DNA of 64,000 nucleotides, from assembly GCA_037042185.1 (NCBI GenBank), contig JAXQJY010000027.1:2914001-2978000 (forward strand), written 5' to 3'. The notes beneath the pieces are model-generated. The model was given only the letters and a program-made list of their open reading frames with translations, had not been told where the DNA came from and made no database searches. The DNA comes from Sordariomycetes sp. S80-01Y. Lineage: Eukaryota; Ascomycota; Sordariomycetes. This document shows, one piece after another, positions 1-50,340 of this stretch (the stretch's first letter is position 1; each line of letters starts with the position of its first letter). The position numbers were made by a program, and so were the translations under genes.

Positions 1-2240
1 GACCGCAAGGATGGTTCCCGTATCTGTTTCGGGATACCATTGATGTGGGCAGCCATCAGAAATAAACCTTTGCTATTCAGTACTCTGTTGAGAGCGCATG
101 AGAAGCCGGGTTTCCACCTCAGCCCAACGGATTACATCGCTTCGGTACAGCATTTGGCAGGGTTGAATCACCATGAAATGCTTCAGAGAAGTCTGGACGC
201 ATTTGAAACTGTCGTGGATTACACAACCATGAACCGCGAAACAATGAGCTCAAAATGGGTTGGCGAATTTTTCGAAATGAGTCAAAGATTTGAATGGCAG
301 TTTGATCATTTCTTGACATGCCCAACATTCACTTCCCTTCGGACACCACAATACAGCCAGTTGTTGTACTTTGCCGTGGACCATACCCCACGTATAACTC
401 TCAATCGCCGAATTTTGCATCGAGGAGCCTTTCGTTTCGCGAAAGAGGCCACAGTCCATCTGTTGTTGAAGCTGGGAGCTGACCCGATGCTGGTGTTCGG
501 TCGCGAATCGATAGATAAAGCAGCGTCATCGGCGCTCTCGAGGTCAATCATATCTGCCGATAGTATTTCTTTCTCTCTCATGCTTTCCGAGATGCAAAGT
601 CGCCACGCAGAGGAGGTGCTGCCCACTCTATCGAACCTCGAATTGTTTGGCGGCCGAAGTGCACTGCAAAGTGCCATTCACAACGACGCCATCGACATAT
701 TCCGACTCTTACTTGAAAAGTATCCCGAGTTGATGGTCGTTAAGGATATGAACCATAGGCAGCCCTTGCATACCGCTGCTTCGCAAGAGAGAACTGAGTA
801 CGTACAAATTCTACTCGCCCAAGGTGCCAGTCCGTTGGATCAGGCCAAGAACCACTCCACGCCTTTCAAAGCAAGCCTATTGTGGAACACAAAAACAGAA
901 TCCTCCATAAAGATCACTGAAATGATGTTCAATCACGCTGGTTCACGCGCGCCTAGCCTACTGGACCCCGATCGTATGGAGGATGGATCAGCACTTGTAG
1001 CTCTCATAGAAGCTACCATGCTCTACAAGCTGGACTATGGGGTGGAAAGACTCGAATACCTCATTCGAAGATATGGGAGGCCCAATTTCTATGTCGATGA
1101 GGATGAAACGACAGTTTTTAGGTGGTTGTTCCTTCACCATACGCCACCAAACGACCGTATTACTAGGTCATTGAGGGTCCTTATTCTCAAACTTTTGTTG
1201 GACATATTTCCAGACAAACTGAACTCCCGTGATTCCACGGGTCGCACTCTCCTGCAAATGTTAGTTTGCGTGGCAGACGTCGCTGCTGTAGAGCTTCTGC
1301 TCCAGAGAAAAGCAGACATCAATCTCGAAACCCAGTCTTTGGGCACAAAACTAGATGGATTTACGGCGCTGGGGCTTGGTGTGCTACTCCGAGACGGCGA
1401 TCCACCGAAGTGGATTCAAGGGGGCGGGCAAAGGGAGATTGAGGCATATCAACTCGACCGACACAAGGTCGTTGAGCTTTTGATTGCAGCCGGAGCCGAA
1501 ACCCCTGGTTGCGGTGCAAACACTGCCACTCAGTTCAAGACAATGGAGGCGCTCGAAAAGCAAAAAAGAAAAAATGGAGGAAGGAGTATGATCCAATGTC
1601 TTGACCTTTCTGGTACGTGTCCTGCTGAGCACCACTATTACTTTACAGACGGCTCAATGCCCATTCTTCTGGTGACCAAGAGCTGATGTTCGTAGAACGA
1701 CCTCAGGGACCTCATCGAGCAAGAGTGGCTGACTGGCCATCTCGAATGCCATGGGATGGTGCGAGTCAATCGCCGTTCGGGGCAAACGGCAGGACAAAAG
1801 AAGTAGAGATAATTGGCTCGAATGGCCTCTCGACCACAATGTCTGAGACCCCCGCACTATTGGCGCAACTCTTTGGGGCCGTATTCAATACTCGATCCCG
1901 AACCCTCGATTTCCACAAGCCCAGGCCACCGGCGCCTCAGGTGTTCATTGAGACACTGAGAGATGCGATAGAGTTAGCAAGGACTTCTAGAATGAAACAG
2001 GTGCCGACTCTTGTTGACGAGGATTGCTTTATTTTCACGACTCCACGAGCGTCATCGCCGCCAAGGATGCAGTCTGTGGGGGCCGATGCCGAATTGGCGG
2101 CCATCGATCTCCGTCTCCCGGTAGATTGGCGTGTCAGAAGAGACGACAAGGGAAGAATTTACTATATTGATGACTCTACGAGAACAACAACATGGCAGTC
2201 GCCACTAGTAGCAGGGGAGGGAGACAATTGTCAGACTTGA
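1..2240 (+). CDS. Ankyrin-repeat protein with C-terminal WW domain (5' partial)
   Basis: The reading frame is open from the first base, so the gene begins upstream of the window. The first part carries degenerate ankyrin repeats: one at the very start (GIPLMWAA), a clear pair around 660-850 (QPLHTAASQERTEYVQILLAQ) and more near 1250-1490. The frame hits a stop at 1684, but a donor GTACGT at 1613 and an acceptor with a GCTGAT branch site ending at 1695 remove 83 nt and join it in phase to a second exon that runs to 2240. That exon ends with a WW domain (about 2115-2204, LPVDW...YYIDD...TTW, signature tryptophans 22 residues apart), which should bind proline-rich peptides. Ankyrin repeats with a WW domain suggest a scaffold or sensor; the role is not known. 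The gene converges on the HeLo gene. The splice is inferred, and reading it as two separate genes is less likely. Confidence 0.75.
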
Positions 2241-2573
2241 AGTGCTCAGTGAAGTCGTTGCGGACCTTGAAGGAAGATGTGGTGTAGGCATCGAAGACGA
2301 GTTTCCATGCCAGAAGATAGCAGCGGACTGGTGAGGGAAATCGGATATCACAGGTCTTGGAGGTGTTGAAATCGCTTCAGTTTCAAAAGACAAGTTCTTC
2401 GCGTCAAGGAAACAAAGGGAATTGATAAGCAATTATGCGGCGTTGCAGTACATTGGCCTTGCATTCTACTATAATGTCCTTGCATTAGGGTCTTCCCGAG
2501 TCGGTCTCGTGCAAGCAGCAGACTGCAAAAAGTGACTTGAGAATTCAATATCAAAATGACTTATTTTGCAAAC

Positions 2574-4223
2574 TTACGCTTTGAGATGTGATAAAGGTTT
2601 CACCACTTTCTGAAAGTATCGAGTTGCCAGCAGCTTCGCTTCCTCATGGGCACAGCCCAAGCTCACTCCCAGCTCGCCACTCAGGCAACATTTGATGACG
2701 TCCACAAGCTCAGTCCCTACCATTCCTTGCAGATCTTCTCCGAATTTTCCAGATAGCTCCAACTGCAACGAATCAGAAACCTGCCTGGGTGTCATTTTCT
2801 CATATCCTGAGTCGAAAATAGGACGCCAGAAGGCCACTTCGAGAAGGACTATGCCGACGCTATAGATCTCCCTGACCTTTGTCCATCCATATATGGTGTC
2901 GGGATGGTAGTACAGGTCGGACTCTAACGTTTTCGATTGTCTTTGCTCTATCGAGGCGTCTGCGGCAGGGCGGCTATACTGGAAGCCAACGAGATATGGT
3001 TCGGCAATGATAGGGGCTCCCTTGACTGATCCGAAAATGATACAGTCGCTTCGAAAGGATTTGTGGAGCCAATTGGTAGCGTGAAATAAGGAGACGGCTG
3101 AAGCTAGTCTGTATGCCAGCGAGAATCTCTCGCCAAGGGCAGGTCGGGTCCGGCTCTTTTTAGCTATCCGAATAAGTTCCAAGAGGGAAGAAGGCCTCGC
3201 ATCAAAGTCAGTCGCGGGCAGACGATAGACGAGTGCTATGCGGCGATCCCCTTTGTTGCGTTTCTCGTATTCCTCGTCGGTATAGATTCCAAGGCAGTCC
3301 AGGCGGTGAAATTCTTCCGAGGTTGCTGTACCCAAGACAGCCCCGAGCGCCTGTATCCGGGTGAGGATCTCCCCCTTCGCGGGGTTGTTGGCTTCTATCG
3401 TCTTCCATTCCAGCAATATTTGCTCAGGTCCTTCGCCTGGCTCTTCGTAACTTCCTATGCTCCTGCTAAGGGCGTGATGTGCATCGCGAAAGACTTCAAG
3501 TGAGGATTTGGTGACATGAGTGACACGCTTCGCTGCGGTCTCTACATCTTCTTCTTGAATTGTCTTCAGTTGCGATGCTAGCAGCAATAGCTTTTCTTGA
3601 CCTCCCTTCTGGTGCTGTTGGTGTATTGCGGCAACTGAAATCCGCTGGTCGAGACCGCTGAGGATAGATGTGACGAGACGCGTTTCGTTGAATTCATCCG
3701 GTCGGACGAGTGTTTCCAGCTGACGATTCAGCCTGCTGAGGCTCGAGACAATGTTTTCAAATTGCCGTTTGTCTTTGGTAGCCCACTGTACCGGATTGTC
3801 TTGCTTAAATCTTGCTCGCTCTGCTCTGATATGATTGATCCACTGGCTGCTCTCATGGAACAGCAATGGGAGATTCGTAGATTGCGTTTTTTTCAGTCTA
3901 GCCATCCCGTACTTCTCGGCGATCTTTTTACCAGTAGACTCTTGTATGGTGAGGATTTCTGCGATTATACGGCCAACTGCGTCTTGAATAATACGTGGTT
4001 CTTTATTGAGCAGGCAAGCTCCCTGGTCGTCTATTTTCATACGCTCGCCCCAGGTTTGGAACTTGAGCTTCTCGATGTCGTATTCCAAAGCTGTGGATTT
4101 AACGCCATTTTCAGAAGCAAAAATGTCCGTCAGCAAGACGTAACCATCAATGGCACCCTTGATGGCGGCCAGTAGCCCGGTGGCGCCCAAGGTTGTTCCT
4201 ATAATCAGCTCCACGCCCGACAT
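2574..4223 (-). CDS. HeLo-domain protein with C-terminal pseudokinase (MLKL-like architecture)
   Basis: This frame encodes 549 residues from the Met at 4223; a Met at 4352 would add 43 residues that do not resemble the family. Residues 1 to about 200 match the HeLo (prion-inhibition and propagation, HET-S/LopB) domain: a hydrophobic start (GVELIIGTTLGATGLLAAIK) followed by YDIEKLKFQTWGERMKI. HeLo domains are helical bundles that insert in membranes and kill cells. A helical linker follows, then from about residue 325 a protein-kinase-like fold. Its catalytic signatures are lost: no beta-3 lysine (ALVYRLP), the HRD region reads LHKSFRSD, and the DFG region reads LVGFQYS. The structural EIYSVGIVLLE helix remains. 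It is therefore probably a pseudokinase. Its 3' end abuts a GTAAGT (2577-2572) that could splice to a further 58 codons ending at 2348. It converges with the ankyrin/WW gene. Confidence 0.8.
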   Translation of the reverse strand: MSGVELIIGTTLGATGLLAAIKGAIDGYVLLTDIFASENGVKSTALEYDIEKLKFQTWGERMKIDDQGACLLNKEPRIIQDAVGRIIAEILTIQESTGKKIAEKYGMARLKKTQSTNLPLLFHESSQWINHIRAERARFKQDNPVQWATKDKRQFENIVSSLSRLNRQLETLVRPDEFNETRLVTSILSGLDQRISVAAIHQQHQKGGQEKLLLLASQLKTIQEEDVETAAKRVTHVTKSSLEVFRDAHHALSRSIGSYEEPGEGPEQILLEWKTIEANNPAKGEILTRIQALGAVLGTATSEEFHRLDCLGIYTDEEYEKRNKGDRRIALVYRLPATDFDARPSSLLELIRIAKKSRTRPALGERFSLAYRLASAVSLFHATNWLHKSFRSDCIIFGSVKGAPIIAEPYLVGFQYSRPAADASIEQRQSKTLESDLYYHPDTIYGWTKVREIYSVGIVLLEVAFWRPIFDSGYEKMTPRQVSDSLQLELSGKFGEDLQGMVGTELVDVIKCCLSGELGVSLGCAHEEAKLLATRYFQKVVKPLSHLKA

Positions 4224-4352
4224 GACTGGCCGAGATTCCACAAGCTGCAATCTAGGCAGCTCATTCCACGAGAAGAGGAGTGAAAGAGGACTGAGACCCT
4301 GTTGAAGAGTATGCGCGGAATTTGAAAGATAGATTTGTGAGGGGAATGTCAT

Positions 4353-5437
4353 GCGCGAGCGTGGCGAAGTCGCGGCGACACGCTAAGACCAGCGGACTGC
4401 CAACATTACTTACTATCTGCAGAACCCCACGAAAACGGCCCTTGCGCAGAGGGAGGGGTCAAGACATCCACGAGCACGTGACTTCAGACCAGTAGGCGGT
4501 ACTTTGTGGATTCCCTTCGAGAAGAATGACACGAAAACCGAAATTTAGCTAGCTCACAGCATCCGTGTTCAGAGACACAATCGGTAGCGGCCATTAATCT
4601 GGAGGTCCTTCTACTCAAGTTTGGGTGAGAAGAAATCTCAGCCAGTCGATCGTTCAAGAGCAAATACAAAGGGCGTTTTCTGATCGACCAGAGCCTTCCC
4701 GATACCCTAGTATCAATTTCTTGATCTAGATACCGTCATAACCGTGCACCTCGAGTGGTTACTATTTTGGACTGGTCGTTGACCATGTCTAAGTGCCATA
4801 GTGTGAGGGAGCAAGATCTGCATTCTATTTCCATGAAGCAATTCAGCATTTTGTGGTCGCTATGTTCGATCTTTTAAGCACACGGAGGTATTATTGTTCA
4901 CCGCTCGGAGGGAACTCGATAGCGCCATTATAAACCACGCCCTATGTAGCCGTAAAACAACCTACATACCAGGCTCATCCGAATCATCGTCATCTCCAGC
5001 CTACGGAAAATGCCCTGTTGCGAAGCAAGCGAAATCCCATGGTGAGGTCGGTCAGCATCTACAAAGCATCCAGACCGTCACGTTCGTGCTTGCAGGGGTC
5101 TATGCTGGCCTCGCCTTGGGCCCGGCGATTCACGGCGTTCGGCGATCTAGGAACTTCGGGTCTTTCGGCTAGTTTCAGCGAATTGTTGGCTGAATGTCAG
5201 TAAGGGCAGACCGTTTTCGTATGAGGTTCAGACATGAGAGTCAGAGTCGGAAGATACCGCGATTATGACCAGCGTGATGTTGTTGATGACGAGCCGATCG
5301 TCGCAATGAAAGTGGTTATACAGAAACTCATAAGCAAGATCCAGAAAAGTCTTCCCGCTTTGTTGAATTCGTCAGACAGACTATGTTCTAAATTCACACA
5401 TAGAATAGCCCAGTATTCCATGAATATTGGGGTAGGC
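4353..5437. other. Intergenic, divergent upstream region
   Basis: This stretch separates the HeLo gene (minus strand) from the small Zn2Cys6 gene (plus strand). Only short open frames without recognisable motifs are present, including frames at 4894-5172 and 5263-5748 (opposite strand). It presumably holds both promoters; no specific site stands out. Confidence 0.5.
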
Positions 5438-6401
5438 ATGTCAACTGAAAAATGTTGCAAAGGCTGTAAGAACAGTAGCGCAAACACCAGGCGACGAGCA
5501 GCCACGTAAGGATTTCTTTTTCCTAGCAAAAACGATTTGAGACGGATTGTAACAAGGGTCTTTAGAGCCTGTTTGTCATGCCGCGCTCGCAAAGTGCGCT
5601 GCGATGTGTTTCGCAAAGGTGTACCCTGCACCAACTGCCATCTGGACTGCAAGGGCTGCGTGGTGAACGTGGTTAAGGCTCGTCGGTAGGTTCCCAAATG
5701 CAAACATAGCTTCCTCAGACTAAGAACCTGTGAGGGCACTTCTTTCAATCAATGCAACTGAATCTCATCCTCTCTGGGGTGGCTTGAGTGGTCTGCATAC
5801 GTCGACCAGGGAAGCTTCAAATACGACCCCCTTTAAGACTGAGCACGAGCTCAAGCTAGGTTCCTCAGAATTCTACCACAGCTTAAACGAGTCTTCGATT
5901 TCCGAGAAGCTGGCGGCTCGGTCGCCTGTAGGTGGACAAGGACGTATCGACACTTTGGGTACCGAGCAGCCTGAAATACGACCAAGTCTCGTCAGAGAGG
6001 CCCGTCCATCAACCTCTTTAACAAACGACAGTCCCGTTACATCTATTGACGATAGTTTCATACCCGAGTTCTCGCCCTCAATTACCAGTACACCCACAAC
6101 GTCAAAAGATTCCTATGGCTCCCACAGTTCTCCAGGGTTCCCTGAAAGTCATAGAGGCGAGAGCATCGCCACCGTTTCGCACTGCAGCCCGAGGCAAAGT
6201 TGTCTTAATCTAGACTTGAAGTCCAGCCATTTCAACAGAATCCCGCTCTATCAACGATATGGCGGACTGCACAACAGTCAAGCTCTACGTATCGAAAATC
6301 TATCTTTGGAAGAAGGTCGCGATTCAAACATGGGTACCATCCAGGTGGACGAGGAGCTATACAGCGTTTTGACGGCCGAGTGTCCATGGTTTGGTGCCTG
6401 A
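5438..6401 (+). CDS. Small Zn2Cys6 transcription factor, no middle homology region
   Basis: Exons are 5438-5505, 5566-5685 and about 5735-6401. The first intron (donor GTAAGG, branch TTGTAAC, acceptor TTTAG) cuts just before the finger and joins RRRAAT to ACLSCRARKVRCDV. The finger (ACLSC...VRCDV...VPCTNCHLDCKGC) has the six cysteines and basic first loop of a fungal binuclear zinc cluster that binds CGG-type sites. A donor GTAGGT at 5686 follows; the in-phase acceptor is either 5734 (GAG, unusual, but with a GACTAAG branch) or 5809 (CAG), giving about 284 or 259 residues. The rest is Ser/Thr-rich with no Fungal_trans domain, so it is short for this class and may be truncated or a dedicated small regulator. 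Start chosen at MSTEKCCKGC; a frame extends upstream to 5234 without family support. Confidence 0.6.
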
Positions 6402-6923: not shown

Positions 6924-8207
6924 ATGGCAACTCTGTTAAGATCCTCGGCGATGAGAGCTGGTGCTCTTCGCCCGTTTCTCCGCCCACGCATCAGCAGGCA
7001 AGCACAGAGGTTCGCATCAAGTCGCGTCGCTTTCCAATGGGACGACCCCTTAAACCTCCAAAACTGCCTCAGCGAAGAGGAGCAGGCGATTCAGGAGACT
7101 GCGCGCGCGTACTGCCAGGAGAAACTCGCGCCACGCGTCCTCGAGGCGTACCGCAAGGAAGACTATGACCGCAACATCCTTCGTGAAATGGGTGAGCTGG
7201 GCCTCCTCGGCTCAACCATTGATGGTTATGGCTGCCCTGGTGTGAGCAGCGTCGCCTCGGGACTTATCACCCGGGAGGTTGAGAGGGTCGATTCGGGCTA
7301 CCGCTCTGGCATGTCCGTCCAGAGCTCCCTCGTGATGGGGCCAATCCACGAGCATGGCTCTCAAGAGCAGAAGGACCGGTGGTTGGAGAAGCTGGGAAAG
7401 GGAGAACTAGTTGGCTGCTTTGGTCTGACTGAGCCTAACCATGGCTCAGACCCAGGGTCTATGGAGACAAATGCCAAACCTCATCCGACGAAGAAGGGGG
7501 TCTACGTGCTCAACGGCGCCAAGACTTGGATCACAAACTCTCCCATTGCCGACATACTGGTGATCTGGGCAAAGCTGGACGGAAAGATCAGAGGCTTTGT
7601 GGTCGAGAGAGACCAGTGCGCGCCGGGAGCTTTGGAGACGCCCGCGCTCAAGGACAAGAACGGGCTTCGCGCGTCAATCACCGGCATGATCCAGCTCGAC
7701 AACTGCGAAGTACCCGCCGAGAACCTCTTCCCCGAGGTGGAAGGCCTCAAGGGACCCTTCAGCTGCCTCAACTCGGCCCGCTTCGGCATCGCCTGGGGCA
7801 CGGTCGGCGCGCTCGAGGACTGCATCGACCGGGCCCGCACCTACGCCCTGGAGAGGAAGCAGTTCGGCAAGCCGCTGGCCGGCTTCCAGCTCGTGCAGAA
7901 GAAGCTCGCCGACGCGCAGACGGACGCGGCCTTTGGGCTCATGGCGGCGTACCAGGTCGGGCGCCTCAAGGACGAGGGTAAGGTGGCGCCCGAGATGATC
8001 TCCATGATCAAGCGCCAGAATTGCGACCGTGCTTTGGTCGGTGCGAGGAACCTGCAGGAGGTTTTTGGCGGTAACGCGGCGAGCGATGAGTATCATATCG
8101 GAAGGCACGTAGCCAATTTGTTCGTTACTCAGACGTACGAGGGGCAGAGCGATATTCATGCTCTGATCTTAGGCAGGGCCATGACAGGGCTTCAAGCTTT
8201 CTTCTAG
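6924..8207 (+). CDS. GCDH: Glutaryl-CoA dehydrogenase, mitochondrial
   Basis: An uninterrupted frame of 427 residues, normal for the family. The enzyme is an FAD-dependent acyl-CoA dehydrogenase that oxidises and decarboxylates glutaryl-CoA to crotonyl-CoA in lysine, hydroxylysine and tryptophan breakdown, passing electrons to ETF. The N-terminus is rich in Arg, Ser and Ala with no acids (MATLLRSSAMRAGALRPFL), a typical matrix-targeting peptide. The family motifs are present: GCFGLTEPNHGSDP, TWITNSPIADI, RKQFGKPL, and near the C-terminus TYEGQSDIHALILGRA, whose glutamate (about residue 406) is the catalytic base. It converges with the CoA-transferase at 8373-9949, whose likely product, glutaryl-CoA, is its substrate. 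No stops, frameshifts or introns are seen. Confidence 0.95.
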   Translation: MATLLRSSAMRAGALRPFLRPRISRQAQRFASSRVAFQWDDPLNLQNCLSEEEQAIQETARAYCQEKLAPRVLEAYRKEDYDRNILREMGELGLLGSTIDGYGCPGVSSVASGLITREVERVDSGYRSGMSVQSSLVMGPIHEHGSQEQKDRWLEKLGKGELVGCFGLTEPNHGSDPGSMETNAKPHPTKKGVYVLNGAKTWITNSPIADILVIWAKLDGKIRGFVVERDQCAPGALETPALKDKNGLRASITGMIQLDNCEVPAENLFPEVEGLKGPFSCLNSARFGIAWGTVGALEDCIDRARTYALERKQFGKPLAGFQLVQKKLADAQTDAAFGLMAAYQVGRLKDEGKVAPEMISMIKRQNCDRALVGARNLQEVFGGNAASDEYHIGRHVANLFVTQTYEGQSDIHALILGRAMTGLQAFF

Positions 8208-8372
8208 ACCAAGCGACCCTCGGCAGTAGTGATGAATAGAATGTAAAGTAATTGGCATAATCACGGTATCCCCTTTGACAGAACAAAGGCTTGAATGGAG
8301 CTGCTAGCTTCAGTATAGCTTCTGCACTTTGAGTGAGATTTGTGAGCGTTTCTACCCCTCTAACTTCAAGCC

Positions 8373-9949
8373 TCAGTTTACAACCCCTTTCTCTCGCAAT
8401 GATTTAATTGCCGCCGACTCGTAGCCAAGGTGCTCAGCCAAGATTTCATCCGTGTGCTGACCCAACGTTGGCGGCGCCGTCCGAACACCGGGCTGGCTGT
8501 TGGAGAACTTGAACGGGGTGTTGACCAACTTGACAGGCCCACACTCCGAGTGCTCTGCCTCAACAACCATGTTGCGCGCCAGGGTGTGAGGGTGGTTTAA
8601 TGTCTGCTGGACGTCGTTCACTGCTGCGTAGGGAAGGCCCTTGCCCTCGAAGATCTTCTGCCACTCGGCAGTCGTCTTATTCGAAGTCAAGCTCTCGATG
8701 TCGGCCTCGAGCTCATCGCGGTTCTTAACGCGGTCTGCGTTGGTCTTGTACTTGGGATCATCCTTCCAGTCCGATCGGCCCAGACCGTGGCAGAGAATGC
8801 CGAAGAGCTTGTCGTTGCCGCCTCCGAAGAGGATGTCGCCGTCGAGCGTCTTGAACGACCTGTAAGGGACAATCGAAGCTGCGAGGTGGTTAGGGATCCA
8901 GATTGCTTCCACCAAGTTGTCACGTAGACTTACGATGTGAAGTTCCCCAGCGGCCGCTATCCGGCTTCCCACTGATAAGGCAGCTGCTGGCAATGTTGGC
9001 TAGCGTAGCCGTCTGGCAGTCGCTCAACGAGACATCAATGTGCTGGCCTTGACCGTTGATGCCACGGCCTATCAGCGCAGCCATGACGCTGTTGCTTGCG
9101 TAAAGGCCTGTCGTCAAGTCCGTGACGGCGACTCCCACTTTTACCGGCGGTCCGTCTCGAGCGCCGGTAATGTGCATCAGGCCGAACTCAGCCTCGACCA
9201 TGACATCGTATCCAGCCCGGCTTGAGTGAGGCCCATACTGACCGTAGCCCGTAATGGAAACGTAGATGAGACGAGGGTTGATCTTACTCAGAGTCTCGTA
9301 GTCCAGATTGTACTTCTTCAGCGTGCCAGGGAGGTAATTCTCAACAAGAACATCGCTCGACTCTACGAGCTTGTGCAGAATCTCGACACCTGCCTCGTGT
9401 TGGAAGGATAGGCCTAGTGACTTCTTGTTCCGATTGACCTGAGTTCAATCAGAGCGAGCACACAAGACAGGTGACCCCGGCATGTTGAGAACTTACACCA
9501 AGAAAATAGGCGGCCTCCCCCGGGCCATCCTTAGCGGATCCGGGTTTGTATTCAGCGTAAGGGGGCCCCCAGGCGCGCGTGTCGTCTCCACGAGTCGGGT
9601 GCTCGATCTTGAGCACCTCTGCGCTGGTGGCGCGTCAGATCATATAACTTGTCGAGCCAATGGTGTGGACAAGGGCACTTACCCAAGATCACCCAATATC
9701 TGCGTGCAGTACGGCTGCAGAAGACGAGCGTGAGCATCAGACCATGGACAATATTGAATAAAGTGACCTCACCCCAGCCAGGACCCTGGTCATGTCCAGG
9801 ACCCGGACACCTCTCAGCGGGAGGTTGCCATTGCTGGCCTGAGCGGAGAAGCGCCGAAGCGTAGCGTGCACAGACAACGGTTTCGCCTTGGAGGCACGGG
9901 CTGTCCGCAGCAGTGCTGAGCAGCTGAAGGGCATTCGCGTCGTCCACAT
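8373..9949 (-). CDS. SUGCT: Class III CoA-transferase, glutarate (succinate-hydroxymethylglutarate) type
   Basis: Five exons: 9949-9773, 9714-9683, 9623-9497, 9438-8934 and 8878-8373. All four introns are 55-59 nt with normal sites, and the joins rebuild conserved family text across every junction (VLAG/PYCTQILGDLG/AEVLKIEHP; AYFLG/VNRNKKS; WGTSH/PSIVPYRSF). The product is 448 residues with a basic N-terminal presequence. It belongs to the CaiB/BaiF family; the catalytic Asp that forms an acyl-anhydride lies in VAVTDLTTGL. In animals the closest relative, SUGCT, moves CoA from succinyl-CoA to glutarate. Lying tail to tail with glutaryl-CoA dehydrogenase, 165 bp apart, it most likely re-activates free glutarate in the mitochondrion. 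Other dicarboxylate substrates are possible. Confidence 0.9.
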
Positions 9950-11636
9950 GTTGGCGAACGATGAATCACGTGCGAGGGTGGCGCTGCCAGCATCCGGCGT
10001 CGTCTCGGATGGTGGGATGGATGCGGAGGCATTGGGGCTTCTTCAGTTGTTCACGAGTCGAGCTACGGGTGCAGAGACGCTATGACGGCACTGCTGCGGT
10101 GGTGCCCCAACACGAGGAGCCCCGACGCAGGCCGAGGCAACTGCCAGCGCACCCCAGCCGGAGTCGGAGTCGGAGGTCTTCGGCGCTTGCGACGGCGCCA
10201 TTGGGGACTCCAACGGCGATGGACAGGCGGTCTGAAATCGAGCCGGTGTGAATAGAATGAGACACAATTGAGGCAAGCTTTTGAGCGATGATGATTGTCT
10301 CACGCCAGCCGCGCGTGCCGCATCTCAGTCGCACACCCACTCGCTCCATCATGGACCAGGACTCCGACCCAAGCTCAAAAGCCAAGAGCAACTTACCCCG
10401 ACAGTGGATGCCATTATTGGGGGGGCCCAAAGACCCTGAATCTGTCTTCTACACCGGCCCGCTTTTCCAGGGAACTTAATCTCTCGTCTAATCACGAGTC
10501 GCATCTCGCATCCATGAACGAGCTTCGGCTCGCAACGAACTGCCACACGACGAACTGCGTCGTAGCCTGACGTGCCCTGACCCGCCCTGCCCTCACGCGG
10601 CGCTACGGCTTATGGGACACTTCGTACGCTGCCAGTGATGACGCGACTCATTCGAAGCGCGTAGCCCGCGCTCGCTCGGCTGTGACCTCGTACACTCGTA
10701 CGCACGTCGCTAACGGTCGCGAGTCAATGCGGCGCTCCACGCGTCTCTTGGAGGCTGCTGCTTTTGCTGGTGCTCCTGTTGCTGCTGCTCCGCCCCCTTT
10801 TCCAGTTTGGCTCGCATCCGTTGCGGAGATCTCCAAGGCAATTCTAGAACCCGGGACCCTTGAATCCACTCCTTGTCGCCTTTGCGCACCTTTTACTGGC
10901 CGCCTCCGTCAGGTGGACAAGGATCGTCGACCAACTTGTTTGAGCCTCCTTCCCCGTTGGCGGCAAATTGCGATGGCCACACACAGTGAGAGAGGCAGTG
11001 CCACGAGTGCCACCACAATGGTTTGAGTTGCGTGGAGTCTTGGCCCACGGCTGGTCCTCCACAAGGGGCTCGACAACCGTTTCCAGGGCTTTCAAGGGGT
11101 CCTACGGGACGAGGTTGAAGAAAATCCCCGTCGCCGTCGGTGCGCCATTCCCCCGTGTAAAGGCGTGCCCATTCTTTCACCCTCCCGCTCCACCCATGAC
11201 AGCAGGTATTAGTCGCCCCTGGGGCAGCTGCGACGACCTGCAGCCATGTCGAGTCCACGCAGAGATGGGATGACGATAGGGGATGAAGGGTCCAGGGCTG
11301 TTGCGGCAGGGGCTCGTCCACCGGTTGGCAGCGGCCACCACTGGATCAGCACCAGAGAAGCCGTGCGCGAATTCGCTCACCGCGGACGCCCATCTGTCCT
11401 CGGCTTGGATGTCCAGAGGCGCAAACGAGGTGGTTTGTTTCTTCATCGCCACTCTCCTGGTCCTTTCTTCATCATCCCCCTTCCTTCAAGTCTCCTTCAC
11501 ACCCCCAGGATCACTGGCCAGCCGTTCCTTTTGACCAAACATCGACCTTCTCTTCGTCTCTGCTTCCTGGTACCGACACTCTTTGAGAGCCACAGCATCT
11601 TCGAACCCGACCAAAAGCCTCCCACAATCCTTCGAC
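9950..11636. other. Intergenic, divergent upstream region
   Basis: A 1.7 kb divergent gap between the CoA-transferase and the sphingolipid desaturase. It contains several open frames on both strands, all with low-complexity or arginine/proline-rich translations typical of GC-rich noncoding DNA. The part nearest the desaturase (about 11,440-11,630) is pyrimidine-rich, as is common just upstream of fungal start codons. Confidence 0.5.
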
Positions 11637-13764
11637 ATGATCGAGGCCACCGCGAAGCGCGACCAGGTGCTGGCGCCGCGCCAGATCGAGGGTCTGATAG
11701 CGCAGGGCCAGACCATCGTCATCTGCGAAGACTATGTCTTGCGCCTCGATGCCTGGCTCGACCGCCACCCAGGAGGTCGGTTGGCGATTCTGCACATGGT
11801 TGGCCGCGATGCCACCGACGAAATAATGGCGTATGATACCCGAGCGATTCCTTAACCCCAAACTCGTCCTTCATGTGCGGCCCCGATTCCCCCTTCCCAG
11901 TTCTAGTCCCCAATCCGGTGCTTTGAGGCGTTGTCGCGGCGAAAAGTTGAGGTCAAGCCATGGTCATTCAAATGACCAAAAGCGTAGTCTCGCTTGAGTA
12001 GGAGGGGGACGAAGTGTTGATATATGTCCCGCGGACGTGAGGTCCGGCGCCAAGAACGCATAGGGAAGCATTTGTCATTTGTCATTAATAATGATGCCCG
12101 ATAGCACTCTGCTTGCAAAACTCCGAAGCCACGGAACAGAAAATGCTAACTCCGATGTGCTTACTGCAGATACCACCACGCCGCTACACTCCCTACAATG
12201 AGGGCGTTCCGGATCGGTCGGAAGCCGATGGGTCCTTGGATCAACATGAAGCCACCAATCCGCGGCGGCGTCTACAGAAACCTCAGTGTCACATCCGCGC
12301 CGCCCGGGGCCGCGGACGACTCCGAGTCGGATTCTGAAGAGTCCGTAACCTCCGGGCAGTCCTCCGGCGACTATACTCTTTCCACCGTGTCGAGCGTATC
12401 CACGCCGGCCGAGTCCGTCGTTGGCTCCGTGGCCTCCAAAGGCTCGGTCGCGGACCTCAATCTGAGGTATCGCGGTGGGCTTGCCCCCGAGACTCCGAAA
12501 TCCCAGGAGACCAAGGGACTGCCCACCCGGTCCGAGTTCACCACATCTGTTTTGCAAGCCAACGTCGACAACGACATCCGCGACTTCCCGTCGCTGGACC
12601 TGGGCGTGCAGCAGAATATCGTCTCGCGATACCGTTCTCTTCACAAGCAGGTCATCGATGAGGGCCTCTACCAGTGCAACTATGCCGCTTACGGCAGGGA
12701 GATGGTGCGGTACCTGACCCTCTTCGGCCTCTTCGCCTTTACTCTGCACCATGGCTGGTACACAACCTCGGCCTTCTTCCTCGGCTTGTTCTGGGTAAGT
12801 CATTTCCTGAAGCGCGATTGACACCGTTGCTAACCTTGGCCAGCACCAAATCATGTTCACAGCCCACGATGCGGGTCATCGTGCCATCACGGGCAACTTC
12901 ATCTTCGACACCTGCATTGGCATCTTCATCGCTGACTTCTGCTGCGGCCTTTCCATCGGCTGGTGGAAGAGCAGCCACAACGTTCACCATCTCATCACCA
13001 ACCACCCTGAGCACGACCCCGACATCCAAAACGTCCCGCTCTTCGCAACCTGCCCTCGCTTCTTCCGGTCCATCGTCTCATCCTACTACGAAGATTTCAC
13101 CTTTGTGTGGGACAAGGCTTGTGAGATTCTAGTGCCTTACCAGCAGTACACGTACTACCCCGTCATGGCCATTGCTCGCTTCAACCTCTATGTGCTCTCA
13201 TGGCTGCACGTTCTGTCAAATAAGTCATCTGGTCTCGGGGGCAGCAAGGCGTGGTGGATCCGCCCTGCCGAGGTCGCGTGCATGGCGTGCTACTGGTTCC
13301 TCTTCGGCTACTGCTTGCTTTGGTGTTCGATCCCGACCTGGACGTACCGCGTAATCTTTGTTCTGGTCTCGCACATTGTTCTCATGCCCCTTCATGTGCA
13401 GATCAACCTGTCCCACTGGGGAATGTCCACGTCGGAGCTTGGCGAATCCGAGTCCTTCCCGCAGCGACAGATGCGCACGACCATGGACGTCGATTGTCCC
13501 GCATGGCTCGACTGGGCCCACGGCGGTCTCCAATTCCAGGTTGTTCATCACCTGTTTCCCCGTGTTCCTCGACACAATCTACGAAGGGTGCAGACCTTGG
13601 TCAAGGAGTTTTCGGCAGCCACCGAGATCCCTTACTCGCTGCTGGGCTTTGTGGATGGAAACTACAAGGTGCTGGGGAGGTTAGGCGAAGTCAGTGATCA
13701 GGTCAGAATCCTGGTCAAATGTCAGAAGGACATGGCCGAGACTGGCGAGATGGGTTTCCATTGA
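11637..13764 (+). CDS. SLD: Delta-8 sphingolipid desaturase (cytochrome b5 fusion)
   Basis: Exons 11637-11830, 12170-12794 and 12844-13764 give 579 residues. The first intron is 339 nt, long for this window; the second is 49 nt with a TTGCTAACC branch. The enzyme puts the delta-8 double bond in the long-chain base of fungal glucosylceramides, in the ER membrane. The N-terminus is a cytochrome b5 domain with the heme motif HPGG (44-47) and a second histidine near 67, which the first splice completes (MAY/HHA). A Ser-rich linker (about 105-180) follows. The desaturase domain has three histidine boxes: HDAGH (281-285), HNVHH (318-322) and QVVHH (505-509, Gln replacing the first His as usual for front-end desaturases). 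Hydrophobic segments flank the boxes. The gene looks whole. Confidence 0.93.
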
Positions 13765-14174
13765 GCCCCGGGCTTTTGCTTTGTTTTGCGATTCGACTGA
13801 CTAGGGCGACGGCATGTTCTGGAGTTTGGCGTCACAACATTGACATAGACAACATCACACAGATAGACTTTCATTTCTTTTGACCCGAGGTCCCGGCACC
13901 CGATTGATCATCTCAGCGTGACTTGTCTACGTGACTTCGGTTGGGCTCCTGGAGTTTGCCCTGGAATTCGACCGACGGCTCGCCGCAACGGGCTGTCTCC
14001 GCCCATGACTCGGACATTCCCCGCCCAGCCATCTCGACGGACTTTTCCCGCCCTCACCCAAACTTGTCCCTTCAACAGACCCTTTCCGGGACGGCGGATT
14101 TCCATCTTTCAATCCCTTCAAGCCCCCCTTTTCCTACCCCAGACTTCCTTATCAGCCTCTTGAAGCAACGGGGT
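13765..14174. other. Intergenic
   Basis: A 410 bp tandem gap between the desaturase and the next regulator. No gene is supported; it is C-rich close to the downstream start codon. Confidence 0.5.
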
Positions 14175-16505
14175 ATGGCCGGAGTGGAGACTGTCCAGCG
14201 TCGCGGATCTAAGGAGCCGCGACGGAACTTGCGGCTGCGACTTGCATGTGCGAGGTGCCAAAAACGGAAGATCCGTGTAGGTGGTCCTTGTCTCCAATAA
14301 TCTTGATGGGTGGAAAGGAGAGCTGACTGGGGCAGTGTGACGGTAGTGCGCCGGCGTGTACTAATTGTAAGAAGGCGAGGGTTGAGTGCGTAGATGGGGA
14401 GAGCGTCCGACTGGGCGACCTACCAAGGGCGTATGCAACTATCTTTCACCACGCTCCGAGATATGCTGGGGTTGACTGATGTTTGATAGACAAATCTCGA
14501 GGCTGAAGACGCGTGTTCAGTGGCTCGAGTCTATCATCAAGGCCCGCTGCCCGGACGTCGACTTGTCCCAGGCGGCTGCTGCTGGGTCTGATGCCGATGA
14601 CACCTCCCCTTTCGAGGCGCCTTTGAATGAAGCTATTGATCAGCATGCCATATCTCCACCGCTGGAGGAGTCAGAGCGGCAGACTCGACTCCCCATCAAC
14701 TCAAGGGCTGAGCAGCAGCAGCAGCAGTGGCAGTCCTCTGGGCTGTCCCATGAGATTGGTCTGGTTTCGCTCAACGGCTCCCAAGACCCCCGATACATTG
14801 GGCCCTCAAGCGGACACTTTCTGGCGCGGGTGATGCTCGCCGGCAACCGAAGCTCGGAGGACCCTTTTCGACCGCGAGATCACGCACAGCAACAAGTAGA
14901 TTCAACGGACCTCGTCGAAGCCTTGCAGGGTCCCCTACCATTGCCGCCGGAGAACCAAGCCCGTCTCCTGGTGGACCACTACTTTGAAGTCATTCATCCG
15001 CAGTATCCGATCCTTCACCGGCCGTCATTCCTGGCAAAGCTGTCCCAGGTACTCATCGCAGACGAGCCGGAGCCGTCAGATGCGTTCCAGGTGTTCATGG
15101 TCCTCGGCATCGGCGCCATAGTCGCATCGCACCGTCGCAGGCTGCGGTTGCCGGGCGAGTCCTACTGCCTCTCCGCACTCGCGTACCTCGACCGCCTGAA
15201 CGTCGAGAACTCGGTGCAGGGTCTGCAGTGTCTGCTTCTGCTCTTCATCTTCACGATCCACTGCTCGAACATGAAGCTCAACATCTGGTATCTGAACTAC
15301 CAGTGCATTGCCTGCGTTCTGGATCTGGGGCTCCAGCGCAGCATCTCCGCGAGACCGGGGATCACGCACTTGGACGTCGAGATGAGGACGCGGCTGTTCT
15401 GGGTGGTCCTTACGCTAGATAGGAGGGTGGCTACCATGATGGGTAGGCCGATCGGGCTTCGCGACGAGGCTTGTGATCTACGTGTAAGTCCGTCGGTCTC
15501 CTTCCCTACCTAATGATCGCTAACATGATACAGTTGCCCAACGACATTTCCGAGGAAAATGGCGGCGCTCAAAGTGCACCGACATCGATGGCTTTCTCGA
15601 TTCATCTCTTTAAGCTCGCCAAGCTCAACTCCGAGATCAAGTACGTGGCGATGAGCGTCAACCACGATACACCAAGCTATGCGTATCCGGCAATCCTGGA
15701 CTACAGCGAATGGCAGCAGAAGATGCTCTCGCGGCTGGAGGAATGGGCGTCAGCAATACCACTTCCAGACGCAAGCACCTCTTTCATTCATACCATTAGC
15801 CAGATCCACTACCAAAGCCTCAAGATGGTGCTTCTTCGACCTAGCCCCGCCATTCCGAACCCACCTCGGTCGACACTACGCCAGTGCCATGATGCGGCGT
15901 TCCAGAACCTGAAGCTCATCGGCAACCTCTACAAGATCAACCAGCTTATCCAAAGCTGGGACATCTTCTATGCTTTGGTTCTGAGTGCCATCACGAGGAT
16001 GTACTGCATCAAGAGCGTGCCTGATTTGGCGAGGGAGACGGATGCAGAGAGCTTGCTCGCCGACATGGGAGACTGCCTCAGCATCCTAAGCGCGACTGGG
16101 GAGCACTGGCCCGGTGCGAAGCGCTGTCGGGATATACTGGATGATCTAGGTCGAGCTTTGGTCAAATGGTTAAAAGACCCAGCCGCTCTTCAGCAGGACA
16201 ACAGCGTTCCCCGACCTTCGCAGCCGCCTGCCGATATGCAAATGCCCAACGCAGCATCCTGGGATGCCGCGACGTCTGGCGATGCAATGAACACATTCCC
16301 CCCACTGTCGGATGGGAATCAGGTCTTCACCATGCCCAACGACGACGTGTCGGCGCTGCCCTTCTTCGGGACGGAGCCGTTCGATCCCTTCCCAATGGCG
16401 GGGTGGCCGAGCCTGCCACCCGATGCTGAGAACATGGACGCAATCATCAGGAGCCTTTTTGATGATTTTATTCCTAATTCCGGCGACGGTTTCCAGGTCC
16501 AGTGA
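14175..16505 (+). CDS. Zn2Cys6 transcription factor with Fungal_trans domain
   Basis: Exons 14175-14276, 14336-14430, 14490-15483 and 15534-16505 give 720 residues. Three introns of 50-59 nt all keep phase; the first splits the zinc cluster (ACARCQKRKIR/CDGSAPACTNCKKARVECV). A short coiled linker (QISRLKTRVQWLESII) follows, as is normal after the cluster. The fungal transcription factor domain begins near YFEVIHPQYPILHRPSF and includes the TRLFWVV...RRVATMMGRPIGL region. The C-terminus is acidic and aromatic, rich in Pro, Met and Asp, consistent with an activation domain. A short CAG tract (about 14,711-14,728) codes for a glutamine run. A short-chain dehydrogenase starts 183 bp downstream on the same strand, so it may be a target. 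The ligand and target sequence cannot be inferred. Confidence 0.9.
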
Positions 16506-16687
16506 GGTGTCCTTCCTGCTTCGGAGTGGTGGTGATGCTGGTCTTCTAGTGCGGACTTTCACCGCGCCCACTTACACCACAACGGACTTACTCCGCGTCT
16601 CCATCCCACGATACAAGAGCGGGCAGTCTTGAGCCTCATGTCCATACACACACCTTCTCATGCACTCATGCGCTTGAAACAGTCGAC

Positions 16688-17506
16688 ATGCTAGATCTCA
16701 CAGGCAAAGTCGCGCTCATCATTGGCGTGGGCCAATCCTGCACCCAGGGATGGGGCATCGGTTCAGCATGCGCCGCAGCACTGGCCCGACAAGGCGCCAT
16801 CATCTTCGGCGGCAACCGCACCCTCGCGTCCGCCCAGAGCACAAAGGAACACATCGAAAAGGCCGGTGGTGTGTGCGACCTCTTCGCCATGGATGCCACC
16901 TCGTCCAGCTCAGTGAAGGTGCTCGTCGACGCGTGCGTCGCGAAGCACGGGAGGATAGACATCTTGCTCACCAACGTGGGATATTCGCAAGCCGGATGTC
17001 CGGCGACGATGGAGGAGAGCGTCTGGGACGCGCAGATGGACATCAACCTCAAGAGCGTCTATCTGGCCTGCCACCATGTTCTGCCCGTCATGGAGAAGCA
17101 GGCGACCGGCGGATCCATCGTCTGCATCTCGAGCATTGCCGGGCTGCGGTACATCGGCAAGCCCCAAATCGCCTACAACACGGCCAAGGCTGCCATCATG
17201 CAGTTCGTCAAGGCCACTGCCGTCATCTATGCGGACAAGGGCGTGAGGCTCAACACGGTGGTGCCGGGCTTGATGGAGACGCCCTACACGCATCAGCTGG
17301 CGGAGCGGTTTCCGATGGAGGGGGGTTACGCGGCCTTCAAGGCGATGAGGGATCAGCAGGTGCCTGCGGGGAAGATGGGTGATGCGTGGGACGTGGCCAA
17401 CAGTGCCGTCTTCTTGGCTTCCGACGAGGCGAGGTACATTACCGGTCAGAAGATTGTTGTGGATGGCGGCATCACTTCTTCAACGGGAAAGCCCCCGAAG
17501 TCGTAG
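16688..17506 (+). CDS. Short-chain dehydrogenase/reductase
   Basis: An intron-free frame of 272 residues, the usual size of a classical SDR. The Rossmann start is unusual: in place of the common TGxxxGxG it reads GVGQSCTQGWGIG, the longer loop seen in some enoyl-reductase-like and FabG-like members. NNAG is replaced by NVG. The active site is present as ISSIAG with Tyr163 and Lys167 (YNTAK), and the C-terminus has the family ending ITGQKIVVDGG. It should be a cytosolic NAD(P)-dependent alcohol/ketone oxidoreductase. The substrate is unknown. It lies between the regulator upstream and a Dabb-domain gene that converges 74 bp downstream, which suggests a small catabolic set. Confidence 0.9.
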   Translation: MLDLTGKVALIIGVGQSCTQGWGIGSACAAALARQGAIIFGGNRTLASAQSTKEHIEKAGGVCDLFAMDATSSSSVKVLVDACVAKHGRIDILLTNVGYSQAGCPATMEESVWDAQMDINLKSVYLACHHVLPVMEKQATGGSIVCISSIAGLRYIGKPQIAYNTAKAAIMQFVKATAVIYADKGVRLNTVVPGLMETPYTHQLAERFPMEGGYAAFKAMRDQQVPAGKMGDAWDVANSAVFLASDEARYITGQKIVVDGGITSSTGKPPKS

Positions 17507-17580
17507 CTTCACCGGAAGAATAACAAGACTTTTTGCATTTCTACCAATGATTTCTAATAATTATTCCAACCTGTGACAGC

Positions 17581-18058
17581 TCACAATCCGCCCACTATTG
17601 ACTTGGCCATTTTTTGAAGAACACCCGGGTCCTCCTCGGGGATCTCAAAATCAAACCGCGTGACGTCCTCCTTGTACGGCCAAAGATATGTGCTCGTCAC
17701 CCTATCAAGATCAGCTGCCACATCATATACCCAGTCCTCGGTCTCAACATACCTCTCATGCTCCTCGCTGGCCTGGTAGGCCGCAAGCGCCTCGGGGCTG
17801 GCGTGGAAGCTGACGAGGGCGTGCTGGAAGCCCTTGCTCTTCTCGATGGGCGTGGTGATGGAGGGCCCACCGACCCAGAGCTGCCTGTCGCGCACGCACG
17901 GGAGGTCCCTGAGGGCGCTGACCTCCTCGACGAACTTGGCCCTGTGCGCCTCGGCCACGTCCGCCCTGAACTTGAAGAGCACTGCCGGTGGGTTAGCTGC
18001 CGTGCTCGGGCGTGGGGGCTTGGTGATGGCAATGCTCACCGATGTGGATGACCGTCAT
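17581..18058 (-). CDS. Dabb-domain (stress-responsive A/B barrel) protein
   Basis: Two exons, 18058-18040 and 17981-17581, give 139 residues. The intron (58 nt, donor GTGAGC, branch GCTAACC, acceptor GGCAG) joins MTVIHI to VLFKFRADV, rebuilding the standard first strand of the domain. Without splicing, a frame starting at 18039 would lose this strand. The core HALVSFHASPEALAAYQAS is the typical Dabb pattern of a small dimeric alpha+beta barrel. Some family members are stress proteins, others are enzymes (olivetolic acid cyclase, fungal cyclases or isomerases). The role here is unknown; its place beside a short-chain dehydrogenase hints at metabolism rather than stress. Confidence 0.88.
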
Positions 18059-19288
18059 GTTGGATTCTCGAGTGAATGAAACGATTGGGAGCAATCTTCG
18101 GGGGGTTTTACTCTGCTTGGGATCTCATTGCGTCCTTTTGTTGTCTCTTTATCTCGGCTACTGGTCGCGGACGGGCCGAGTCCGCGACGGCGGAGAGTGT
18201 CCGCTGCGCCCGGTAGTGGGACGGCAACTTCACGAGGCTACGAGGCTGATGATTTGAATCCATCACAATGTCCAAGCTTCGGTATGCATAAGCTGCACGA
18301 TATAATTTTCGGCCCTTTTTGCGCGTTGTAACACTCGGAACACGCGTATCGGTGACTCCACGTCCGACCTCCCCTTCTTGGAGACCTACCCTGCGGTTGA
18401 CACTTTGGCGTCATTTTTCGACACAATAAGCTTTGACTCATTAATAAGCTTGAAATTAAGGGTGCAGATGGGCTGTTTGAAGAATGCCTGCAGCTGAATT
18501 TTTCTGGGGTAGGGTTCTGTGGTGCTGTTTATGGCCGATGTGAAAACACGGTCAAAAGGTGCTGCGTTGAACAAGGTGTGATCTTGTATTGTCTTCTACA
18601 TTCTCGGCCAAGTCCACGTTCGTCCCGCGTCAACTGACCCGTGCAATTCCTGATAAGTCAAGATGCATAAATGCGCGAGCAGTTCACCGACATCCTTTTC
18701 CGAAGCACATATGCAGTCAGCTCGTCCCCAGCCGACCCATGGCCTCGGACCGGAGAACCGATGACGTTCGCACCAATTGCAGCCATTCCCAACAGTCAAG
18801 CCAAGTCAGTCCAACCCCACGCCAAGCCAGACTTGGACGGCAGCTGAAGGCACCGAGCGCCCTTTTTGACAGCTTTGGCAGCAGAGCTTAAGGCGTCAGT
18901 GCACCACCCCCTGGAGGGCAGACGGTAACTTATACCGCCGGCGCTAGGCCGAAGTGAACGATACCCCGCCGGAGCCCCGCTTCCCCAGAGGTCCCCGCAA
19001 CCCGGATTGGTGAATCGCCGCGGGCGAGCAGACGGACGGGGGTAACAAGGGTGGGCAGGCAATATATTGCAGCTCTTCGCGTGGCTGCAAGCCGTCGGCT
19101 ATTGGCTGGTAACATGGACTTCCTGAAGGGCCCCATTGTATTGGCATTCGTGGAAAGACATTTCGAGGTGGGGCGGCCTGACTGATATATGAACCCAGCC
19201 TGCCCATGTCGACCGTCCTCCTCTCTCTCGATTACCGTGATACAGCACTCTTGACCTTGAGCTTGATCTGGAGAGCAAGAGAGTCACC
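18059..19288. other. Intergenic, divergent upstream region
   Basis: A 1.2 kb divergent gap between the Dabb gene and the sugar transporter. No gene is supported. A TATA-like ATATAT at about 19,184-19,190 lies some 100 nt before the transporter start codon, and clustered CreA-type hexamers lie further upstream (see next entry). Confidence 0.5.
18964..18998 (-). promoter_or_regulatory. Cluster of four CreA/Mig1-type sites
   Basis: Four hexamers fit the carbon-catabolite repressor consensus SYGGRG when read on the minus strand: GCGGGG at 18964-18969, 18975-18980 and 18993-18998, and CTGGGG at 18983-18988. A further GTGGGG lies on the plus strand at 19168-19173. They sit about 290-325 bp before the sugar transporter start. 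Closely spaced pairs of such sites are the form known to act in vivo. The motif is short and GC-rich, so single hits mean little; four within 35 bp is the notable point. Glucose repression of the transporter is inferred. Confidence 0.45.
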
Positions 19289-49659: not shown

Positions 49660-50340
49660 ATGGAGCATGCGGACCGAACTACAGCCGACATGGCTATTGC
49701 CGCAGTTTCAGGGGCTGGAGCATTGATGTATCTCTTCAAAGCTCATCAGTCTCCGAACGGCTTGCGTACCGCCCACAAAACGACAGCAACATTGGCCCTT
49801 GCGGTATTCACGGCTCAGCGCAATGGCGTGACACCTGCGGGAATCACGCTCTCTCTTGCCCTCGCATTAAGCTCTCTGGGCGATTACTTCCTTGCCATTG
49901 AAGATACCGATGCGAACTTTCTTCGAGGACTAGGCAGCTTCCTCGTAGCACATCTGCTGTACATCAGCATGTTGATGCCCCGGACGTCTGGATACGAGAT
50001 TGTGACCTCTGACCTATTCCGTGCGGCCTCTTTCGTCATAATGGCTTCGACGGCGCCGGTCCTGAACTACTTGATGTTTTGGCGAGTCGAATCGAAGCTA
50101 AGAATACCGATCTTGGCCTACTCCGCAGTCATCTTTGTCATGTTCTCTTCCGCCCTATGTGTTGAAGACTCGGTGGTAGTGCGAGGGGCTGTATCGTTCA
50201 CGGTCTCAGACTGTCTGCTGGCTACCGATCGGTTTCTGCTTGGGCCTAAATCGAAGCTTGCTCGACCAATGCAGTATGCCGTCTGGGTATTTTATTACCT
50301 TGGCCAGGCTCTTCTGGCTGTTGGGCTTTCGGAACGATAG
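49660..50340 (+). CDS. YhhN/TMEM86 family membrane protein (lysoplasmalogenase-like)
   Basis: An intron-free frame of 226 residues with about eight hydrophobic segments. Family signatures are LALALSSLGDYFLAIED (the conserved acidic active-site region), GLGSFLVAHLLYISML, and SFTVSDCLLATDRF. In animals TMEM86A/B cleave the vinyl-ether bond of lysoplasmalogens in the ER; bacterial YhhN members have similar activity. Most fungi are not known to make plasmalogens, so the substrate here is open. The start has a reasonable context, and the length matches the family. No neighbour points to its role. Confidence 0.88.
   Translation: MEHADRTTADMAIAAVSGAGALMYLFKAHQSPNGLRTAHKTTATLALAVFTAQRNGVTPAGITLSLALALSSLGDYFLAIEDTDANFLRGLGSFLVAHLLYISMLMPRTSGYEIVTSDLFRAASFVIMASTAPVLNYLMFWRVESKLRIPILAYSAVIFVMFSSALCVEDSVVVRGAVSFTVSDCLLATDRFLLGPKSKLARPMQYAVWVFYYLGQALLAVGLSER

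Follow-up and report, generated by a model that had tools for sequence, protein, structure and literature searches.

A HeLo-pseudokinase gene and its kinase-ankyrin neighbour: a possible two-gene cell-death relay in a filamentous fungus

Closest described systems

In fungi, HeLo killer proteins are armed by NLRs, to which they are either fused or connected via amyloid templating, and both HeLo-NLR and gasdermin-protease gene pairs have been described (PMC12881547; here and below, we refer to selected sections of this paper, as well as of PMC10197012 and PMC3591445). In pairs of the HET-S/NWD2 type, a HeLo executioner adjoins the gene of its activator and the two form a two-gene cluster (PMC12881547, PMC10197012), which is also the layout of the locus described here. 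Unlike in HET-S/NWD2, the neighbour at this locus is a kinase with ankyrin repeats and not an NLR, a pseudokinase replaces the amyloid tail, and no shared motif was found. Similarly, the fungal gasdermin/protease pairs combine a pore-former with an adjoining enzyme that is fused to repeats (ANK/TPR/WD40) (PMC12881547), as here, but at the present locus HeLo takes the place of the gasdermin and a kinase that of the protease.

Fungal HELL-kinase/pseudokinase proteins are mentioned in one sentence in the sections of PMC12881547 referred to, with neither a partner nor a mechanism. Their domain order is like that of the protein encoded in our window (the whole stretch of DNA that was analysed, 64,000 nucleotides; hereafter the window protein), although their N-terminal domain is HELL (HeLo-like) and not HeLo (PMC12881547). 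The order of a HeLo-type domain followed by a pseudokinase is already in print for fungi (PMC12881547), and the kinase-ankyrin neighbourhood appears to be the new element. In the literature searched we found no pairing of a HeLo-pseudokinase with an ankyrin kinase, and an earlier mention is possible, for example in the 2016 HELLP paper or in subscription journals.

MLKL, like the window protein, consists of an N-terminal helical killer domain and a C-terminal pseudokinase, and its activator, RIPK3, is a separate kinase (PMC12881547). RIPK3 has a RHIM, whereas the window protein has as its presumed activator the product of the neighbouring gene, which bears ankyrin repeats. The RIPK3 and MLKL genes are not known to be neighbours.

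Kinases with ankyrin repeats are also described in Aspergillus nidulans, where FfkA-C are reportedly filamentous-fungus-specific, patchy in distribution and divergent; deletions of FfkA-C are viable and the sections referred to list no phenotype (PMC3591445). This dispensability is neutral toward the reading of such a kinase as an activator, which it neither supports nor excludes. The Ffk kinases and the neighbour kinases reported below both unite a divergent kinase with ankyrin repeats, a kinship by description only, and no mention of a HeLo neighbour of the Ffk kinases was found in these sections (PMC3591445).

The HeLo-pseudokinase protein and its paralogues

The HeLo-pseudokinase gene occupies 2574..4223 on the minus strand and encodes 549 aa in one intact frame that requires no intron; coordinates and length are those given in the first-pass annotation. 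Its start codon at 4223 agrees with the starts of the paralogues. The same annotation had placed a HeLo-type domain at the N-terminus, and the profile search bears this out: Pfam PF14479 (HeLo) matches residues 9-181 (3681..4199, minus strand) with an E value of 2.5e-16 and 60.5 bits, above the cut-off of 23.2. Moreover, a profile made from four HeLo halves (those of the window protein and of paralogues L031, L032 and L033) has HET-s HeLo structures as its top matches in the PDB (2wvn, E 2.2e-16). Judging by composition, residues 1 to ~25 are hydrophobic, as expected ahead of the bundle in a HeLo/HET-S-type executioner, and the top 19-residue Kyte-Doolittle window, which begins at residue 3, scores 1.64. 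AlphaFold, run on the single sequence without relatives, gave a pLDDT of 34.8 for the full-length protein and 40.1 when restricted to the HeLo part, and did not confirm the fold.

The GC content is 0.49-0.51 in positions 1-6000 of the window and in about 3 kb upstream of it, versus 0.55-0.60 at 7500-20000; this low GC near the gene has little weight, as 50001-52000 is also at 0.504. GC3 is 0.547 in the HeLo-pseudokinase gene versus 0.745 in an acyl-CoA dehydrogenase-family gene at 6924.

We searched the genome (30.9 Mb, 16 contigs) for paralogues, and the locus counts are lower bounds. As a result, at least five HeLo-pseudokinase loci were obtained, on contigs C10 (the window), C14 (L030), C15 (L031), C7 (L032) and C16 (L033). 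The five protein models, three of them exon-joined, are 489-626 aa long with pairwise identities of 22-33%. In L030 (G000:C14:2531001-2540500, minus strand, 3940-5444) the HeLo domain is short, covering profile positions 5-88 only, and the predicted fusion to the pseudokinase depends on a modelled intron of 38 nt, which is unusually short. This gene may be decaying, or its model may be incomplete.

Searches outside this genome and in other collections returned little. Among viral contigs there were 41 pattern matches and among prokaryote genomes 26, none of which was confirmed as a relative in either set. NCBIfam gave no match, and PADLOC gave the window protein a single weak match, to the PD-T4-6 model (E 0.0047).

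The C-terminal half of the window protein, residues 266-549 as aligned (2577..3428, minus strand), is kinase-like and DUF7580-like. DUF7580 (PF24476) matches residues 344-519 with an E value of 2.4e-5, at 24.6 and 26.4 bits against a cut-off of 27, which is exceeded by L030 (37.6 bits) and L031 (36.6 bits). No paper on DUF7580 was found in the literature searched. Two other DUF7580 loci, L034 (4562-6606, minus strand) and L035 (3851-6162, minus strand), have no Pfam HeLo in the ORFs scanned and no kinase within 10 kb among the matches listed.

The profile search against kinase families, which had been proposed along with the annotation, gave a divided answer. With Pkinase (PF00069) the window half alone reaches 11.6 bits, below the cut-off of 31.7, but paralogue L030 clears it at 35.2 bits, and a profile made from the five C-terminal halves (28-33% identical to the window half) finds kinases: at E<=1 it brings up 368 distinct PDB sequences, the best 60 of which are protein kinases or pseudokinases. 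Furthermore, hhalign aligns the pseudokinase family to the neighbour kinases with a probability of 96, and the segment WLHKS..S.N then falls on the catalytic loop HGD.K..N.

By alignment, the window protein has HKS at the HRD position (residues 387-389; 3057..3065, minus strand), and GFQ followed by YSR at the DFG position (residues 413-415; 2979..2987, minus strand). In the five-member alignment the paralogues read HKG, HKS, HKS and HKS at the former and GFD, GYT, GFE and GLG at the latter; the HRD Asp and the DFG Asp are absent in all five aligned pseudokinases. Where the catalytic-loop Asn belongs, the window protein has Cys and the other four members have Asn, and the APE position is HP-something throughout. 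The beta-3 region reads EWK, EKK, EWL, EYR and EWK, three of the five having a K close to where the strand is expected, and the alignment of the N-lobe is weak. Accordingly, the description of a C-terminal kinase fold that has lost its catalytic motifs stands for HRD, changed to HKS, and for DFG, changed to GFQ, but the claimed loss of the beta-3 Lys is not confirmed in an N-lobe that is too diverged. As far as can be read from sequence, the C-terminal half of the window protein is a degenerate kinase.

Comparison with MLKL had been at the centre of the first-pass annotation. Among the best 60 of the 368 PDB sequences, the best three are MLKL (4m68 with E 5.5e-7, 6vbz and 4btf). The MLKL segment LAGFELSKT aligns to LVGFxYSRP of the family, and the replacement of DFG is alike, being GFE in MLKL and GFQ in the window protein. 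When the six columns equivalent to HRD and DFG were masked, the order became CLK1 (26.8 bits), MLKL (23.7 bits) and IRAK4 (23.2 bits), and the window protein alone has IRAK4 first, at non-significant E values of 0.046 and 0.017. The candidate of MLKL as the sole nearest relative is weakened by this loss of rank 1 to CLK1. The comparison holds for the domain order and for the type of degeneration; a specific kinship is at most possible, with rank 1 obtained only with the HRD/DFG columns included. An MLKL-like way of working is better supported than shared descent with MLKL, and shared descent of the whole architecture is possible on these alignments.

Neighbouring kinase genes and their pairing across the genome

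The neighbour of the HeLo-pseudokinase gene is encoded on the plus strand. Its ankyrin-repeat part lies at 1..1612, in a frame that is open across the first base of the window. The start codon is predicted about 2.46 kb upstream of window base 1, and the kinase domain (Pkinase, E 7e-15) lies about 1.2-2.3 kb ahead of that base; a predicted intron, whose acceptor position is not fixed, would join the kinase domain to the ankyrin frame. The listed ORF 43-1686 is a truncated view of this kinase-ankyrin gene, and the first-pass annotation had no view of the kinase partner because the window contains only the ankyrin part. A further predicted intron of 83 nt (1613..1695, plus strand, GTACGT...TTCGTAG) links the ankyrin frame in our model to a WW frame; without it the ankyrin frame stops at 1686. 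The kinase gene would then end with an exon at 1696..2240 (plus strand), which contains a WW domain (2115-2204; PF00397, E 2.6e-9). No WW domain was found near the other three neighbour kinases (14 WW matches in the genome). The tail-to-tail interval between the two genes, 2241..2573, measures 333 bp, or 887 bp if the WW exon is that of another gene. In the intron-joined model, the neighbour has the domain make-up of the Ffk type, i.e. a kinase and ankyrin repeats.

This arrangement recurs. Four of the five detected HeLo-pseudokinase genes, on C10, C14, C7 and C16, adjoin a kinase gene with ankyrin repeats; there is no kinase gene beside the one on C15 (L031, G000:C15:1285501-1295000), where the nearest kinase is 88 kb away. 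The pairs on C14, C7 and C16 are head-to-head, with 257 bp, 443 bp and 347 bp, respectively, between the predicted start codons, and the window pair is tail-to-tail. The neighbours on C14, C7 and C16 match Pkinase with E values of 6e-23, 6e-22 and 9.5e-23, and their ankyrin repeats follow the kinase domain. On C16 the kinase and the ankyrin repeats share one open frame, and on C14, on C7 and at the window they occupy successive frames, which we took as intron-joined. No further gene with a kinase and ankyrin repeats was seen by eye among the matches listed, to which the repeats beside L032 do not belong.

The 140 matches of PF00069 in the genome merge into at least 104 kinase loci. A kinase domain is present within 4.5 kb of four of the five HeLo-pseudokinase loci, at 0.7-0.8 kb for three of them and at 4.0 kb for the window, where the distance is larger because the ankyrin part intervenes. 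A simple coverage estimate, calculated once the pairing was already known, puts the chance of four out of five at about 1e-5. Within 5 kb, a kinase occurs at four of the five HeLo-pseudokinase loci versus none of the eight other HeLo loci (Fisher p 0.007), and the closest kinase to any of these eight is 5.5 kb away (L036). C16 also carries a second kinase match, an unrelated one 3.1 kb off on the opposite side (C16:3486362-3486943), so single kinase neighbours do arise by chance. The pairing was counted in one genome, and in this genome it is well supported.

The eight HeLo loci without a detected pseudokinase have other neighbours, and five of them adjoin or precede NLR genes. The neighbour is of the NB-ARC-TPR kind at L036 and L037 (with the NB-ARC of L037 slightly below the cut-off), of the NACHT type with WD40 at L038, and NACHT-ankyrin at L041 and L042, where a fusion to the HeLo ORF is possible. 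The scan covered one neighbour each at L039 and L040 and none at L043, a short partial HeLo match that is counted among the eight. In this genome, the usual neighbour of a HeLo protein is a kinase where the protein bears a pseudokinase, and an NLR where none was detected.

We considered whether the neighbourhood might be incidental, that is, an ancestral tandem duplicated en bloc whose HeLo-pseudokinase is functionally unrelated to the kinase. One duplicated block could give all four pairs, and L031 has no kinase neighbour; against this, the four paired HeLo-pseudokinases are 22-25% identical and lie on four contigs, three in divergent pairs and one in a convergent pair. Low identity, four contigs and differing orientation together argue that the linkage has long been kept or rebuilt, and we regard an incidental neighbourhood as very unlikely.

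The kinases beside these genes are also related to each other. When the genome is queried with the window's neighbour kinase, the best other kinases are those on C14 (68 bits), C16 (57 bits) and C7 (44 bits), the next reaching 36 bits; by our own calculation, three given loci out of 103 would rank first by chance with a probability of about 6e-6. With the C16 protein as query, C14 (160 bits) and C7 (83 bits) lead and the next unrelated kinase has 30.5 bits, with the window's neighbour at 24 bits, under five matches to unrelated kinases. The kinship of the window's neighbour kinase therefore comes from the search in which it was itself the query, and not from the C16 query.

An identity of the neighbour kinases as RIPKs was not supported, since their profile ranks an EGFR-recorded construct, LRRK2/Roco4, ULK and CERK1 above RIPK1. 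Co-divergence of the pair members was not seen either: similarity among pseudokinases and among kinases correlates weakly (Spearman 0.43, p 0.40 over six comparisons), and pseudokinase-kinase scores do not consistently favour matched over mismatched combinations, with the matched score highest for L030 and tied for L033, and not highest for the window or L032. The C16 neighbour kinase (L033, 5713-9498, plus strand) matches the anti-phage kinase models mad6 (E 7.8e-31) and PD-T4-6, which is possibly a generic similarity.

Control of the HeLo-pseudokinase proteins

With its MLKL domain order, the window protein is likely a killer of cells, and the kinase next to it suggests how it may be switched on. 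We consider that the window gene probably does not encode a lone protein and instead supplies the executioner of a recurrent gene pair, kinase-ankyrin plus HeLo-pseudokinase. Our main reading, to which we give a probability of roughly 0.55, is a two-gene relay resembling RIPK3-MLKL, in which the ankyrin kinase senses and activates and the HeLo-pseudokinase executes. First, the N-terminal HeLo bundle would be the membrane-attacking part, held off by the C-terminal pseudokinase. Second, the ankyrin region of the neighbour kinase would sense something, and the kinase would then act on the pseudokinase, with phosphorylation of the loop that follows GFxYSR as the most likely means. Third, this action would release the HeLo domain for attack on the membrane. 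Direct interaction, phosphorylation, membrane attack or killing, and a role in immunity or non-self recognition are what we infer for the pair.

The first-pass annotation had already proposed control through the pseudokinase rather than through an amyloid motif. We searched each of the four pairs for a motif that the HeLo-pseudokinase protein has in common with the kinase's N-terminus and found none; 40-82% of 300 shuffles each reach the observed score. No short repeat was seen by eye in the last 60 residues of the HeLo-pseudokinase proteins. In the L036 pair (G000:C3:292001-301500; HeLo gene at 4305-5510 on the plus strand, NB-ARC-TPR gene at 311-4321 on the minus strand), the HeLo protein at its C-terminus and the NLR at its N-terminus do have a common motif, of the type used in amyloid signalling (score 54, reached in none of 500 shuffles), which makes L036 a candidate amyloid-type HeLo/NLR pair resembling HET-S/NWD2. 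The same kind of test gave nothing in the HeLo/NLR pairs L037 and L038, so the shuffle test misses weak motifs. Control without an amyloid motif fits the four negative pairs, set beside one positive among three HeLo/NLR pairs, and the kinase with catalytic residues beside four of the five genes. That the window protein is a HET-S-like executioner controlled by an amyloid motif that was missed would fit its HET-s-like HeLo domain and the presence of the L036 pair in the same genome; set against the missing motifs and repeats, it is the reading to which we give the least credence.

The catalytic state of the neighbour kinases bears on what they may do to the pseudokinase. As aligned, the beta-3 K, the alpha-C E, the catalytic D, the catalytic-loop N and the D of DFG are kept in all four, with the beta-3 Lys of L030's neighbour being alignment-dependent. 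The HRD position reads HGD, or QGD in the neighbour of L032, and the window's neighbour has DFC in place of DFG. These departures from HRD and DFG would suit a mechanism by binding and not phosphorylation, in which the pseudokinase would serve as a lock or scaffold, held or freed allosterically by the kinase-ankyrin protein with no need for catalysis. It would also suit such a mechanism that a conserved phospho-site is not nameable from five sequences that are 28-33% identical to the window half. The retention of the catalytic residues in all four neighbours is unexpected in a pure scaffold, however, and we consider control by binding unlikely.

An active-looking kinase adjoining a pseudokinase could also be a guard or decoy arrangement, in which the pseudokinase baits kinase attackers or inhibits the neighbour kinase, and the output comes mainly from the kinase instead of the HeLo domain. 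It would agree with this that fungal ankyrin kinases of related appearance are divergent and patchy (PMC3591445). But all five pseudokinases are modelled with a HeLo-type N-terminus (shortened and model-dependent in L030), and HET-S, the best-studied member of the HeLo family, is a killer (PMC12881547); in our estimate a guard or decoy is decidedly improbable.

We return to the relay from kinase to HeLo-pseudokinase. More tentatively, and at slightly less than even odds, such a linked kinase-to-pseudokinase death relay may exist in filamentous fungi generally, with ankyrin kinases, perhaps including the Ffk kinases, as sensors and activators of the HeLo-pseudokinases encoded next door. This would be a third route by which HeLo killers are armed, next to fusion with an NLR and amyloid templating. 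If the relay is true, the kinase/pseudokinase logic of necroptosis would be present in fungi as a compact gene pair, and a function would be suggested for the ankyrin kinases of filamentous fungi. Moreover, the age of the MLKL control switch relative to animals would become directly testable.
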